From assembly GCA_017545585.1 (NCBI GenBank), contig JAFWMK010000015.1, forward strand, positions 1 to 52,283: a stretch of DNA of 52,283 bases, in the 5' to 3' direction. How positions within the stretch are numbered: the first letter of the stretch is position 1; the number at the start of each line of letters is the position of its first letter. Source of the stretch: Candidatus Saccharimonadota bacterium (GTDB lineage: Bacteria > Patescibacteriota > Saccharimonadia > Saccharimonadales > Saccharimonadaceae). The notes beneath the pieces are model-generated. The model did not search any database, was not told the DNA's origin, and saw only the letters and a program-made list of their open reading frames with translations. The position numbers were made by a program, and so were the translations under genes. Positions 1 through 3,555 of this stretch are shown piece after piece.

Positions 1-157
<157 letters not shown>

Positions 158-328
158 TTGAGAAGGAATTAGACGTCTGAAAGTCTTCGGACTCGCAGAT
201 AGTCAGGTCGGAATACGTGTTATGATTAGCAAGCTTGAATCATAACAACTCTGGTTTTACCAGACGTAGTATTAAGCTAACAACAAGAACTAAGATAATG
301 ATTGCACAACCAAATTGTTAAACTTTAA
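158..328 (+). other. 16S 3' trailer with hairpins, no 23S
   Basis: This is a transcribed spacer after the 16S. A perfect hairpin with 9-bp arms GTTATGATT/AATCATAAC lies at 219-247, and a second one TCTGG/CCAGA follows at 251-265. I see no tRNA, no 23S start and no ORF. These hairpins may be processing sites for the 16S precursor (inference). Confidence 0.6.
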
Positions 329-358
329 AAAACCGCCCCAAAAAGGACGGTTTTTTGT
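329..358 (+). terminator. Intrinsic terminator after 16S trailer
   Basis: The arms AAAAACCG and CGGTTTTTT with inner CC/GG pairs and an A-rich loop are followed by a T run. It sits between the plus-strand rRNA and the minus-strand MazG gene and can work in both directions. It ends the rRNA transcript without a 23S gene. Confidence 0.8.
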
Positions 359-367
359 TGGCTGCAA

Positions 368-709
368 TTATCTTTCGTCTCCACTGCCATGGATTTTGTT
401 TCTTTGATAGCGGTCCTCTAATTTAGCGACATTTTTTGAGGCCACCTCAGATAAGGGAAGATCAAGGTATCTTGCAATCGAAGCTAGGTACCACAACACA
501 TCCCCGAGTTCTTTGCAGATTGCCAATCGATCTTCCTCGGATATCGTACCATTTTTATCGCGCAAAATTTTCTTAATTTTGTCTGCCGTCTCGCCCGCTT
601 CACCAGTGAGACCTAAAACTTTCTCAATAAACCCCACTTCAGTTAAATCACACTTAGAATAAGTATCGTATTTGACGATCGCCTCTTGATATTTGTCAAA
701 CTCCGTCAT
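368..709 (-). CDS. MazG-like nucleotide pyrophosphohydrolase
   Basis: 113 residues, typical of a single-domain all-alpha NTP pyrophosphohydrolase that cleaves (d)NTPs to monophosphates and pyrophosphate, a house-cleaning role. The metal-binding signature is visible as GEAGE (EAGE, ~37-40) followed by an acidic helix KELGDVLWYLASIA (~66-79), matching the family's ExxE...ExxD pattern. The start has a strong AGGAGG site a few bases upstream. It has its own extended -10 (TGCTATAAT, minus strand, box at 731-736) just upstream of the gene, in the gap after the TrmB-like gene. The exact substrate (dCTP, oxidised or other nucleotides) cannot be read from the sequence. Confidence 0.85.
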   Translation of the reverse strand: MTEFDKYQEAIVKYDTYSKCDLTEVGFIEKVLGLTGEAGETADKIKKILRDKNGTISEEDRLAICKELGDVLWYLASIARYLDLPLSEVASKNVAKLEDRYQRNKIHGSGDER

Positions 710-741
710 TTTACCTCCTATACATATTTAATTATAGCACG

Positions 742-1518
742 TTATTTTTTATCCAACTCGTCTTGATCAGTGGATTTGCGGATATATTTTTTGGCGAACA
801 AAAACACTTGCCGCATAGCATCGGCTATTTCTGGCGATTCGATCAGTGTAGACATCCCATTTTTTGAAAAATTAATAAAAGCTACATTGTCACCAAAGAT
901 ATCAATCTCCACCGGTGAATCGTATTCTTCAGGGGGAATTAGTGTCCGATCGAGTAAATACTTTTTCAACACCTCTTGATTGCTATTTCTTACATAACCT
1001 GCCTGCGCGATATCTTCAGCTTTTATCCCTAATTCCACTCGTTCACTTCTGAAATTCTCTAGCATCTCTGGGCTAGTAATTTTGTCATGGCGACTCCGCA
1101 CAAAATAATAAGGTTTTTTGGTGGCAAGCACTTTGTTCCAAATCATCTGCCTCCCCTCCATCCCATAGAAAGTTTTCACCCCAGGTTTATTCTGATGTTC
1201 GTTATAAAAATTAATCAGGGAGGGAAGATTACTCTCTAGATTCCGTGCTTGCCTAGCCACGCTCCGCAAACGTTTTTCAGCAATCGACTCTAGAATGGAA
1301 GGATGGGAGGGCGCGTAAGCAGAGATTTTCCCCTTATTTTTTTGCGCGATGATACCAAGTTTATCCAATTTTTCTAGGGCAGAATAGACCGTAGTTCGAT
1401 TTTCTTCGATACCTGTAGCTATTTCTGACGCAGTTCTTTGCCCATGCAAAATCAGATATAAATATATTTTTGCTTGTAATTCCGACAAGCCGGCTTGAGT
1501 CAAAACTTCTGTATCCAT
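742..1518 (-). CDS. TrmB-family transcriptional regulator
   Basis: 258 residues from the chosen ATG. The N-terminal ~75 residues form a winged helix: LTQAGLSELQAKIYLYLILHG, then ASEIATGIEENRTTVYSALEKL as recognition helix, then a wing ending in YAPSHP. The remainder looks like the TrmB effector-binding half, with FYGMEGRQMIWNKVL (~120). TrmB proteins usually regulate sugar or metabolic genes, but no ligand can be named here. A longer reading frame reaches 1533. I prefer 1518 because TATAAT (1525-1530, minus) ends exactly 6 bases before that ATG, the leaderless pattern seen throughout the window. It lies directly upstream of MazG with a 32-base gap. Confidence 0.8.
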   Translation of the reverse strand: MDTEVLTQAGLSELQAKIYLYLILHGQRTASEIATGIEENRTTVYSALEKLDKLGIIAQKNKGKISAYAPSHPSILESIAEKRLRSVARQARNLESNLPSLINFYNEHQNKPGVKTFYGMEGRQMIWNKVLATKKPYYFVRSRHDKITSPEMLENFRSERVELGIKAEDIAQAGYVRNSNQEVLKKYLLDRTLIPPEEYDSPVEIDIFGDNVAFINFSKNGMSTLIESPEIADAMRQVFLFAKKYIRKSTDQDELDKK

Positions 1519-1544
1519 AATTCTATTATACATCTTTTAATACA

Positions 1545-1567
1545 TTTGTCGACACTATTTCGACAAA
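1545..1567. repeat. Inverted repeat of cassette 1 (operator or recombination site)
   Basis: Perfect 8-bp arms TTTGTCGA (1545-1552) and TCGACAAA (1560-1567) flank CACTATT. The same site occurs at 2332-2354. In both copies a conserved CACCCCTGTAAAA block begins 36 bases after the first base of the repeat (1581 and 2368) and the -10 box begins 93 bases after it (1638 and 2425). This fixed phasing argues for a regulatory operator. A tyrosine-recombinase crossover site is the alternative. Confidence 0.7.
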
Positions 1568-1580
1568 ATTTTGAATTTTT

Positions 1581-1593
1581 CACCCCTGTAAAA
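1581..1593 (+). promoter_or_regulatory. CACCCCTGTAAAA motif, cassette 1
   Basis: Thirteen bases identical to 2368-2380 in cassette 2 and at the same distance from both the inverted repeat and the -10 box. The sequence between the repeat and this motif differs between the two copies, so the motif is conserved on its own. The ACCCCTG core recurs near 20373 and twice at 45938-45956. Confidence 0.5.
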
Positions 1594-1614
1594 TCACGAA
1601 GCCGTCGTGGCCAA

Positions 1615-1643
1615 TTGCTTTTTATGATATATTATGTTATAAT
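1615..1643 (+). promoter_or_regulatory. Promoter of cassette 1
   Basis: The -10 box is TATAAT at 1638-1643 with upstream TG (TGTTATAAT). TTGCTT at 1615-1620 is a plausible -35 at 17-base spacing. It predicts a ~50-base leader ahead of the ORF at 1701, which has a GGGGGAAAAGAT ribosome binding stretch. Confidence 0.7.
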
Positions 1644-1700
1644 TACAAAGGTAAACATCGTGGTGTGTTTTGCAAATTAATAATAACAGGGGGAAAAGAT

Positions 1701-2147
1701 ATGAAGAAAGAAGAGCTGGAGGCGTTAAGGCAGGAGTTAGATCGGCAGGGGTGCGACACATACATGGGCGTGCTCAATGAAGAGCACGTGTCTTACATCT
1801 CGGCCGGAGGCAGCAATTTCTATGGCTTTAACATAGACTTCGGCGCCATTGCCGATCGTTGCTACAGGTCCGACAACAGGCGGGTTAAAGTCATTCTCTT
1901 TGAGAATGACGAGCAGAGCTCGTACTACTGGTCAATTTTCTTCGAGCGTGGGGAAAGCCATATTGACTTGATGGTCCATCCTCTCAGCGAAGATTTCCGC
2001 GCGGAGATCATTGGCGTGGACTGCCTCCTAAAAGTGTTCCCAGAGCTGGTCGCATACGCGCAGAAATATTTAGCGCGGAACTGGAAACGTATTACCAACC
2101 GCTTCTACAAGAAGGAGCGTGAGGAATACGAAAACGCTATCGTGTAA
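1701..2147 (+). CDS. Uncharacterised accessory protein, cassette 1
   Basis: 148 residues, not recognised. It begins with a charged helix (KKEELEALRQELDRQG), has a central stretch with beta-strand character (VKVILFEND, YYWSIFFERG, IDLMVHPL), and ends in a basic, aromatic helix (YLARNWKRITNRFYKKERE). There is no signal peptide or membrane segment. The start at 1701 is chosen for GGGGGA upstream; an in-frame ATG at 1665 lies very close to the expected transcription start and lacks a site. The codons are visibly richer in G and C than neighbouring genes, suggesting transfer. It is the cargo of the first of two cassettes with matching flanks. By analogy with cassette 2 it could be an anti-defence or phage-type protein, but nothing in the sequence proves that. 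Confidence 0.75.
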   Translation: MKKEELEALRQELDRQGCDTYMGVLNEEHVSYISAGGSNFYGFNIDFGAIADRCYRSDNRRVKVILFENDEQSSYYWSIFFERGESHIDLMVHPLSEDFRAEIIGVDCLLKVFPELVAYAQKYLARNWKRITNRFYKKEREEYENAIV

Positions 2148-2157
2148 GCGGCCAGCC

Positions 2158-2262
2158 AAAACTTCATATTGGGTGATGAGCCCCGTGAGAGAGCTTCGCA
2201 TTGAAGACCTAGGGAACCTATTGTCGTCCCACGGTCCGCGGCCCCTCACGCAATTAGACAAT
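2158..2262 (+). ncRNA. 3' structured pseudoknot RNA, copy 1
   Basis: It starts 10 bases after the ORF stop. Bases 2158-2212 are identical to 2866-2920. Visible helices: outer CGTGAG (2184-2189)/CTCACG (2245-2250); inner hairpin CTTC/GAAG; a long hairpin GACC (2206-2209)/GGTC (2233-2236) capped by GGGA/TCCC. The hairpin loop ATTGTC (2220-2225) is complementary to GACAAT (2257-2262) downstream, giving a pseudoknot. In copy 2 the cap helix is AGAAA/TTTCT, so it is preserved by compensatory change. Function is unknown. Confidence 0.7.
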
Positions 2263-2271
2263 TCTGTATAC

Positions 2272-2304
2272 GCTCCTGGCATAATATCGCCAGGGGCTTT
2301 TTTC
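2272..2304 (+). terminator. Terminator of cassette 1
   Basis: GCTCCTGGC (2272-2280) pairs with GCCAGGGGC (2289-2297) over 9 bp with one G-U, followed by seven T. It closes the transcript containing the ORF and the pseudoknot RNA. Confidence 0.85.
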
Positions 2305-2331
2305 TTGCTCACGAATACGACAAAACCACTA

Positions 2332-2354
2332 TTTGTCGACACTATTTCGACAAA
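2332..2354. repeat. Inverted repeat of cassette 2
   Basis: TTTGTCGA (2332-2339) and TCGACAAA (2347-2354), identical in arms and 7-base centre to 1545-1567, and again followed 36 bases from its start by CACCCCTGTAAAA (2368-2380). Confidence 0.7.
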
Positions 2355-2401
2355 ATTTCAGCCAATTCACCCCTGTAAAAACAGAAAAATGGAACTTGCA
2401 A

Positions 2402-2430
2402 TTGACAAAAACTAAGAATCTTGGTATAAT
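2402..2430 (+). promoter_or_regulatory. Consensus sigma-70 promoter of cassette 2
   Basis: TTGACA (2402-2407), 17-base spacer, TATAAT (2425-2430) with an upstream TG. It is one of the best promoter matches in the window. Predicted start is near 2437, giving a ~75-base leader that contains GGGAGCGCTTCCC (2470-2482), a potential hairpin. Confidence 0.85.
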
Positions 2431-2514
2431 GGTTGTAACAATTGAATAAAGTTGTAGTAATTTAAAAGTGGGAGCGCTTCCCATAAGGCGCGTGGAGTGA
2501 GGGGGCTCCAACAT

Positions 2515-2856
2515 ATGGCAAAGAAATTTTTTGGCTTTGCACTGGCGGACAGCATGTTCCAGGGCGACTGCACGATTAATCGCAAGACCCTGACGGCTGA
2601 AGAGGTGAAGGCGATGGCCGGGGATCTGACTCCGTGCCTCAACCCGAGCCACCAGGCTACCATCGCCGCGATGCGGCAGCGGTACGGGATCGAGGTGGAA
2701 ATCCCCGAGACCCCGCCGCGGGTAGCCCTGGAGTCCGGCGACAGCGTGATCGTGATGGGGGTTCGCGGATTACCGCGGCTCACCGATCGGCACGAGTACA
2801 CCGAGGAGGAAATCGCACAGGCGACCTTCTCCTTTTCGGAGTACACTGTCAGCTAG
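2515..2856 (+). CDS. DUF1874-like protein (AcrIII-1 / STIV B116-type ring nuclease fold)
   Basis: 113 residues, the usual size for DUF1874. The pattern resembles that family: an N-terminal strand (FFGFALADSMF), a helix LTAEEVKAMAG, then NPSHQATIAAMRQRYGIEVEI, then a proline turn, ESGDSVIVMGVRGLPR and a C-terminal EEEIAQATFSF segment. In viral AcrIII-1 the equivalent conserved histidine (H47 in SIRV1 gp29) cleaves the CRISPR type III messenger cA4; here His46 sits in the matching position. Family assignment is from memory of the pattern, not a search. The neighbouring glycine-rich loop is less canonical, so activity is uncertain. Codons are strongly GC-rich. Start 2515 is preferred over 2497 because GAGGGGG precedes it. 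Confidence 0.65.
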   Translation: MAKKFFGFALADSMFQGDCTINRKTLTAEEVKAMAGDLTPCLNPSHQATIAAMRQRYGIEVEIPETPPRVALESGDSVIVMGVRGLPRLTDRHEYTEEEIAQATFSFSEYTVS

Positions 2857-2865
2857 GCGGGCCGT

Positions 2866-2968
2866 AAAACTTCATATTGGGTGATGAGCCCCGTGAGAGA
2901 GCTTCGCATTGAAGACCTAGAAATCATTGTCGTTTCTAAGGTCCGCGGCCTCTCACGTCTAAGACAAT
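2866..2968 (+). ncRNA. 3' structured pseudoknot RNA, copy 2
   Basis: It begins 9 bases after the stop of the DUF1874-like gene. Outer helix CGTGAGAG (2892-2899)/CTCTCACG (2950-2957) is 8 bp. The long hairpin arm at 2914-2923 pairs with 2933-2943 with one bulged A. Loop ATTGTC (2926-2931) pairs with GACAAT (2963-2968). Compared with copy 1, stem bases change in pairs while the loop, the downstream GACAAT and the GGTCCGCGG linker stay fixed, which is good evidence for selection on RNA structure. Confidence 0.7.
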
Positions 2969-2975
2969 TTTTATA

Positions 2976-3003
2976 CCCCTGGCAAAATATGCCAGGGGAT
3001 TTT
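2976..3003 (+). terminator. Terminator of cassette 2
   Basis: CCCCTGGC (2976-2983) pairs with GCCAGGGG (2991-2998) and is followed by ATTTT. The next gene's -10 box starts only 10 bases later. Confidence 0.8.
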
Positions 3004-3024
3004 GCATTATGATATAATATCTCC

Positions 3025-3555
3025 ATGGAAGACACCCGAAATCTCATCGATAAATTCAAAGGTCAGTCAAACGAACAAATTTTTGATACACTTTCAAAAA
3101 CTCGGCAATCTTTAGAAATTGCTATCGAAAATGTTGAACACGATTTTAATATCGGTTCGATCGTTAGGACTGCCAATTCTTTTAATGTAGCAAAGGTCCA
3201 TATCATTGGTAAGAAAAAATACAATCGTCGCGGTGCTATGTGTACAGATAAATATCTCGAAATTGTTCATCATGCTAGCTTGGAAGACTTTTTAAAAACC
3301 CAAGAAAACAGGGAACTAGTTGCCATCGAAAACAACCTTGACCGCGCTAGGCCTCTGCACGATAAAAAGTTTATTCAAAACACCACTCTAATTTTTGGCT
3401 CCGAAAATAGCGGTATCACCAAAGAACTACTAAGTCGAGCAGAAGATGTCCGGTATATCGAATCATTCGGCTCTACTCGTTCTGTTAATGTTGGTGCTGC
3501 TGCCGCTATCGCGATGTACGAATGGACCAGGCAGATTCTATTTGCCAGTAATTAA
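3025..3555 (+). CDS. TrmH/SpoU-family RNA 2'-O-methyltransferase
   Basis: 176 residues, a SPOUT-class enzyme using S-adenosylmethionine to methylate ribose in tRNA or rRNA. The three SpoU motifs are visible: motif 1 NIGSIVRTANSF (~41-52), motif 2 LIFGSENSGIT (~122-132) and motif 3 STRSVNVGAAAAIAMYEW (~150-167) forming the knot that binds SAM. It is short, with no N-terminal RNA-binding extension, like compact TrmH/TrmL forms, so the target base cannot be decided. TATAAT at 3013-3018 (TGATATAAT) ends 6 bases before the ATG, predicting a leaderless transcript independent of the cassette upstream. Its 3' end overlaps the convergent small gene by 18 bases. Confidence 0.88.
   Translation: MEDTRNLIDKFKGQSNEQIFDTLSKTRQSLEIAIENVEHDFNIGSIVRTANSFNVAKVHIIGKKKYNRRGAMCTDKYLEIVHHASLEDFLKTQENRELVAIENNLDRARPLHDKKFIQNTTLIFGSENSGITKELLSRAEDVRYIESFGSTRSVNVGAAAAIAMYEWTRQILFASN

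Follow-up and report, generated by a model that had tools for sequence, protein, structure and literature searches.

A covarying, pseudoknotted RNA element in untranslated regions of Saccharibacteria island mRNAs, with a possible role as a stabilising cap

A compact, pseudoknotted RNA element recurs in islands of Saccharibacteria genomes, mostly just 3' of unrelated GC-rich genes. Covariance searches brought the total to 12 copies in nine genomes of two genera (10 copies in 8 genomes beyond the window, i.e., the whole 52,283-nucleotide stretch of DNA analysed). By their common covarying outer helix (P1) and pseudoknot, the copies are, as far as comparison of their sequences can establish, one RNA family, and the element is a genuine RNA structure under selection in the mRNA untranslated region. 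Its function is untested. We suggest, tentatively and short of calling it probable, that it is a bent, pseudoknot-locked cistron cap in a regulon of "armoured" mRNAs that resist ribonucleases; both the nuclease resistance and the biological setting are inferred, with no transcript, probing or decay data behind them.

The window is a contig end of a 549-kb genome and opens with the 3' end of a 16S rRNA gene; relatives that bear both the element and a name are Candidatus Saccharibacteria, from which we infer that the window belongs there as well. Two copies lie on its + strand where the earlier note had put them, copy 1 (2158..2262) 3' of gene 1 (1701..2147, +) and copy 2 (2866..2968) 3' of gene 2 (2515..2856, +). 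They share an identical 55-base block (2158-2212 = 2866-2920), as that note had seen, and a second block of 18 bases (2233-2250 / 2940-2957) kept with one change; its statement that the copies diverge only in paired positions fails, since unpaired letters in the loop flank, the linker and the 5' end differ too. Specifically, P1 pairs 2184-2191 with 2243-2250 in copy 1 (within 2184..2250) and 2892-2899 with 2950-2957 in copy 2 (within 2892..2957). This outer helix (CGTGAGAG) is present as it had been placed, but spans 8 bp, copy 1 having a single A.C mismatch. Between P1 and the cap helix P2, copy 1 has an inner CGC/GCG pairing and the bulge ATTGAA. P2 comprises 2206-2209 / 2233-2236 and 2212-2215 / 2227-2230 in copy 1, and 2914-2923 / 2933-2943 with one bulged A in copy 2; the caps read earlier were confirmed (GGGA/TCCC in copy 1, TAGAAA/TTTCTA in copy 2) on a base, GACC/GGTC, found in both. 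So were the pseudoknot strands, ATTGTC in the apical loop (2220..2225 and 2926..2931) and GACAAT downstream (2257..2262 and 2963..2968). What had been overlooked is a 4-bp GGGU-GAUGA-GCCC hairpin within the 55-base block (2171..2183 in copy 1, with GGGU at 2171-2174 and GCCC at 2180-2183; 2879..2891 in copy 2), a reading of the letters whose pairs covary in homologues. An intrinsic terminator follows copy 1 (2272..2297, +) and an intrinsic terminator-like hairpin follows copy 2 (2976..2998, +). When each sequence is folded singly, copy 1 scores weakly (z -0.85, -0.15) and copy 2 somewhat better (z -2.9, -2.1). Two copies alone are insufficient as structural proof; that proof, in the form of sequence covariation, is supplied by the homologues.

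A first covariance model (R1), built from the two window copies, was run against 386 genomes of the order and returned two new strong matches (E 3e-8 and 7e-6) plus three weak ones; L013 (G208) and L014 (G226) from this search were rejected as copies. A pattern scan over 84,980 species yielded 23 loci, among which R1 confirmed six, all in Saccharibacteria, and none of the 17 others, which were rejected. A second model from eight copies (R2), searched in 394 genomes of the family, matched nine genomes at E < 1e-5, second copies in G532 and G278 included; L077-L086 and L090 (E 0.001-1) were rejected, most lying within coding sequence by eye. The third (R3; 12 copies, core only) found 4 true matches in 174 genomes of the genus and 5 in 45 of the second genus, and among 286 genomes of the phylum matched only the window's own; G563, from the genus search, was rejected as a groEL-like coding stretch by eye. 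The genome samples overlap, many genomes are incomplete, and duplicate records were counted once (G503 = L039, G512 = L040, G341 = L042, G278 = L044, G532 = L046, G511 = L047). Covariance, pattern and blastn searches did not find the element in other phyla, phages, plasmids or viral contigs, with no pattern match in viral contigs and no blastn match in phages or plasmids. A phage origin was rejected on these empty results and on an equally empty tblastn search of phages with gene 2; in PHROGs, beyond weak matches, only a protein of the G278 island and the radical SAM protein matched. No Rfam 15 family covered the element at the gathering cut-off in the window and 16 loci, or in E-value mode in 2100-3030 of the window, L040 3060-3260 and L093 4900-6420. 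The RNA is not described anywhere in the literature searched, which left out most subscription papers and preprints, nor in the passages of PMC11665869 examined. With strong covariation and nothing in Rfam 15 or that literature, this is, on sequence evidence, an undescribed RNA family.

The fold rests on covariation. In a hand-set alignment of the 12 copies (P2 bulges omitted, P2 of copy 1 counted on its GACC/GGTC part only), pairing holds in 94 of the 96 cells of P1, which shows the exchanges C-G/U-A, G-C/G-U/A-U, C-G/U-A, G-C/C-G/U-A, A-U/G-C and G-C/U-A, and P2 is fast-changing yet fully paired in 12/12 copies, bulges set aside. The four-pair pseudoknot core is paired in all 48 cells and occurs in all four combinations (UGUC/GACA, UGCC/GGCA, CGUC/GACG and CGCC/GGCG); two outer pairs are optional (8/12 and 6/12). 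The earlier note had proposed that an RNA with a covarying pseudoknot follows two unrelated genes, an idea to be given up if homologues lacked covariation in the hairpin or in ATTGTC/GACAAT; with the core pseudoknot kept in every copy it was not refuted, and the homologues support it. An eight-copy alignment (A5) has 26 pairs including the pseudoknot, 89.9% of cells forming standard pairs and 15 pairs changed on both sides. It scores 0.452 for covariation, whereas shuffles average 0.208 +- 0.026 (0/500 reach it) and sliding gives at most 0.140; its "further pair types" do not exceed shuffles (401/500), and P2 is only 70% paired there because MAFFT misplaces it. Without any alignment, loop-to-tail complementarity was 59 versus 38.4 +- 2.7 (0/2000 shuffles), and 38 versus 24.9 (0/2000) in the eight less redundant copies. 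The GAUGA hairpin, whose third and fourth pairs covary in A5, stands upstream of P1 in nine copies and is missing in G532b, G278b and G489; G371 has it alone, as GGCC-GAUGA-GGCC, without the rest of the element. Six copies carry an extra upstream hairpin, CCCAG-GUAAAAG-CUGGG, which in G489 reads CUCAG/CUGAG.

Together P1, the inner pairs and P2 make some 20 bp, whereas the pseudoknot strand stands just 3-7 nt from P1; by this geometry, which is inferred, the hairpin must fold back on itself. We infer from the length of the linker relative to the helix a 180-degree bend, and take the invariant bulge AUURAA opposite C(C/U)GCG as its natural hinge. A hinge role would explain why the internal loop (AGCUUCGCAUURAA / CGCGGC) is frozen while P2 varies freely. 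Yet the internal loop and the GAUGA hairpin are conserved beyond what a roadblock needs, which suggests a bound ligand, a bound protein or catalysis. The catalytic reading would be a self-cleaving ribozyme; alternatively, RNases might always process the transcript here, and either would part the cistrons and define mature ends. In favour, the pseudoknotted core is compact, its internal loop is invariant, and the element recurs between the cistrons of long operons (G532). No Rfam ribozyme family matched even at E 5, however, and no cleavage site is obvious, the sequence bordering P1 and the pseudoknot being unconserved; we consider this explanation quite improbable.

Placement bears on several further readings. 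The element follows a gene in 11/12 copies, and in some copies it precedes a gene without its own promoter. The 3' location claimed earlier is not strict: copy G278b lies in the leader of a gene. P1 begins 13-81 nt past the stop of a GC-rich ORF in 10/12 copies, and a terminator-like hairpin comes soon after the element in 7/12. In G511 (L047:3509-3855) the small gene, its C-terminal end lost, continues into the RNA element, all of whose pairs are kept. Each window unit has the order operator, promoter, GC-rich gene, RNA, terminator. A DNA site that folds for recombination and moves gene cassettes, as attC does, could likewise trail unrelated, variable genes in the same orientation and be sparsely distributed; we give it almost no credence, as there is no GTTRRRY R' box at the edge (from a reading of window 2140-2310), each window unit has an operator and terminator of its own, G-U pairs are kept on the coding strand, one copy stands in a leader, and a covarying internal pseudoknot is not an attC trait. 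A stable fold beside a terminator might instead be the precursor of a discrete small RNA freed from the 3' end, but no unpaired conserved stretch resembles a seed and the 3' end varies between loci, which makes this very unlikely.

A regulatory aptamer or attenuator, in which a small molecule or protein binds to the internal loop and the GAUGA hairpin and thereby steers termination or downstream translation, has more in its favour: the unpaired letters are strongly conserved, a terminator separates the element in G341, G503 and G511 from a radical SAM gene that has a Shine-Dalgarno site of its own, and the G278b and G512 copies lie just upstream of a gene start. Against this, the window elements precede a terminator and then no gene of their own unit, no alternative, terminator-switching pairing was seen, and the flanking genes vary, so that no common pathway hints at a ligand. 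We judge it rather unlikely.

The islands are linked by their regulation. The palindromic operator TTTGTCGA-N7-TCGACAAA lies upstream of gene 1 (1545..1567, +) and of gene 2 (2332..2354, +), and a perfect promoter consensus, TTGACA-17-TATAAT, was found for gene 2 only (2402..2430, +). A gene for a TrmB-type transcription regulator (742..1533, -) diverges from gene 1 across the operator, and a Pfam search of seven other island loci confirmed TrmB-family proteins in each. With up to 2 mismatches allowed, the palindrome occurs in 15 of 29 genomes of the genus, not all of these convincing; the element is missing from most island loci that carry the operator. Between operator and promoter, the window (1579-1593, 2366-2380), L005 and L011 have a motif, TTCACCCCTGTAAAA, that is perhaps an activator site. 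The islands often sit just downstream of the 16S rRNA gene (window 1-2980, L006, L040, L042, L063, L091, L094), the 3' end of which is on the same contig in all seven; we read this shared position as marking a chromosomal hot spot for islands. Because the same element follows unrelated genes, its job appears regulon-wide, not gene-specific. One such job would be as the docking site of an RNA-binding protein (a stabiliser, or a localisation or export signal); in favour, mRNAs unrelated to each other but governed by one type of regulator bear the same motif, and other leader modules recur in the same operons. With no candidate protein identified, this remains decidedly doubtful.

Genes 1 and 2 are unrelated by sequence comparison, as had been claimed. 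Gene 1 (148 aa from the ATG at 1701) has a GC3 of 0.68, the highest among the 35 window ORFs of at least 150 aa (mean 0.42, sd 0.06), and no confident family (weak DUF7718, E 0.024). The structural model of gene 2 (113 aa, GC3 0.80; pLDDT 86) has a TM-score of about 0.65 to the AcrIII-1/Crn2 fold, and its Foldseek matches (2x4i, 2j6b, 6scf and 2j85; E 4.9e-6 to 2e-5) are AcrIII-1, STIV B116 and Csx1-Crn2 structures. On this prediction the product has the ring-nuclease fold of AcrIII-1 and Crn2 (DUF1874, the STIV B116 family); identity to these proteins is only 16-20%, the Pfam STIV_B116-like match falls under the cut-off, and any activity, such as cleavage of cyclic tetra-adenylate, would be by analogy only. 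A DUF1874-like gene in G342 (L007:54-395) has one in-frame TGA at a conserved cysteine position and may be a pseudogene, a misplaced contig or a case of another code. A Csx3-like identity for the small gene of G341, G503 and G494 was dropped, as Pfam gave only DUF364 at E 0.035 and the structural model was poor (pLDDT 57).

Leaders of about 400 nt with common sequence occur in the G016 and G278 islands and also in G532, and it was these that led us to test coding sequences for folding. The structured leader, with a ATATCATGGTRGGTGAGCARGGAA core, follows the operator in these three genomes (L005, L011/L044, L093) and has no Rfam match. In L093 (G532:C11:7000-20220, operon strand) the same structured leader, CCCGACCCC..GGGTACGC..GGAAAGGAG, stands before five unrelated GC-rich genes whose proteins all start MANS; it may be a second RNA family, one located at ribosome binding sites. 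Under synonymous codon shuffles, island genes had a mean z of -3.43 (20/26 below -2), against -0.96 (6/26) for low-GC3 genes of the same loci and -0.73 (3/26) for GC-rich genes of other bacteria. Dinucleotide-preserving synonymous shuffles gave -2.60 (16/26), -0.99 (5/26) and -0.41 (0/26), respectively, the island genes differing from the two controls at Mann-Whitney p 3e-4 and 1e-6, uncorrected for relatedness; the two window genes, at -1.37 and -1.30, are not significant alone. The 26 island genes (window and loci L006-L094) were chosen by hand, and there are homologues among them: four are DUF1874-like and two are the G341/G494 small gene. For the plain codon shuffles two of an initial 28, the L008 DUF1874-like gene and a 72-aa MANS gene from G532, were left out and sequences were cut to 330 nt; controls were random draws from ORF pools. 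Sense was more folded than antisense in 20/26 island genes (p 0.02), and antisense also lay below shuffles (-1.79). Six DUF1874-like coding sequences were each more folded than shuffles (mean -141 versus -126 +- 1.8 kcal/mol) with no clearly conserved shape among them (SCI 0.25 versus 0.22 +- 0.03; 4/40 shuffles reach it). Given excess folding without a conserved shape, selection seems to favour the foldedness of island coding sequences over any particular fold.

For an element found after unrelated genes under one regulator type, near terminators, between cistrons and on folded messages, a stabilising cap fits best, and among the functions first guessed for it (a stable sRNA, a 3' protective element, a ribozyme or a folded recombination site) we favour the protective one. 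In such a cap, the long hairpin would bend back at the invariant internal loop, and its apical loop would pair with letters just past the hairpin base as a lock. The resulting, mechanically stable knot would bound the cistrons of the TrmB-type regulon, mostly at the 3' end before the terminator, where it may slow 3'-5' exonucleases such as PNPase; between cistrons it may slow RNase J from the other side. A PNPase model matched in 8/8 genomes, as did an RNase J family model (7 over the cut-off), though the latter matches most control genomes too and is thus not specific. In the wider design, whole island transcripts (leader, coding sequence and trailer) would be selected to stay folded, letting small accessory proteins, the ring-nuclease-like one included, be made amid active ribonucleases. 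Several observations count against the cap: G278b stands in a leader, the GAUGA hairpin is absent from 3/12 copies, most operator loci are without the element, and the two window genes are only modestly folded under the strict shuffle. The ligand, protein and catalytic alternatives jointly outweigh it, with over half of the weight. Still bolder, and unlikely as matters stand, is the idea that epibiont islands make natural armoured mRNAs, folded throughout and knotted at cistron bounds, that survive an RNase-hostile place: a cell whose immunity acts through RNases (type III CRISPR, toxins) or, in the most daring version, the cytoplasm of the actinobacterial host after RNA export.

Known systems offer partial parallels. 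Viral xrRNAs, like the element, are compact, lie near the 3' end of the message and pair a hairpin's apical loop with the letters that directly follow the hairpin on its 3' side; no sequence relation was found, however (no Rfam match), and the element is bacterial, with nuclease resistance only inferred. Bacterial riboswitch aptamers with loop pseudoknots have an invariant internal loop, covarying helices and adjoining terminators in common with it, whereas the element mostly comes after a gene, not before, and lacks a ligand or common pathway. Type III toxin-antitoxin RNAs (ToxI-like) are also pseudoknotted and share one promoter with a small gene, but the element is not tandem (one copy per unit), trails unrelated genes and has no recognised toxin beside it.

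As a structured, pseudoknotted element of untranslated regions, the RNA would count as a new family of a known type; whole-message folding would be the surprising part for a specialist. Folding of coding sequences is usually associated with engineered mRNAs and with the genomes of RNA viruses. The element marks a regulon whose mRNA coding sequences themselves appear selected for folding, in a phylum on whose RNA biology the literature searched has next to nothing. If the idea of armour were true, these islands would hold a natural recipe for long-lived bacterial messages and would give a handle on how epibionts express anti-defence functions.
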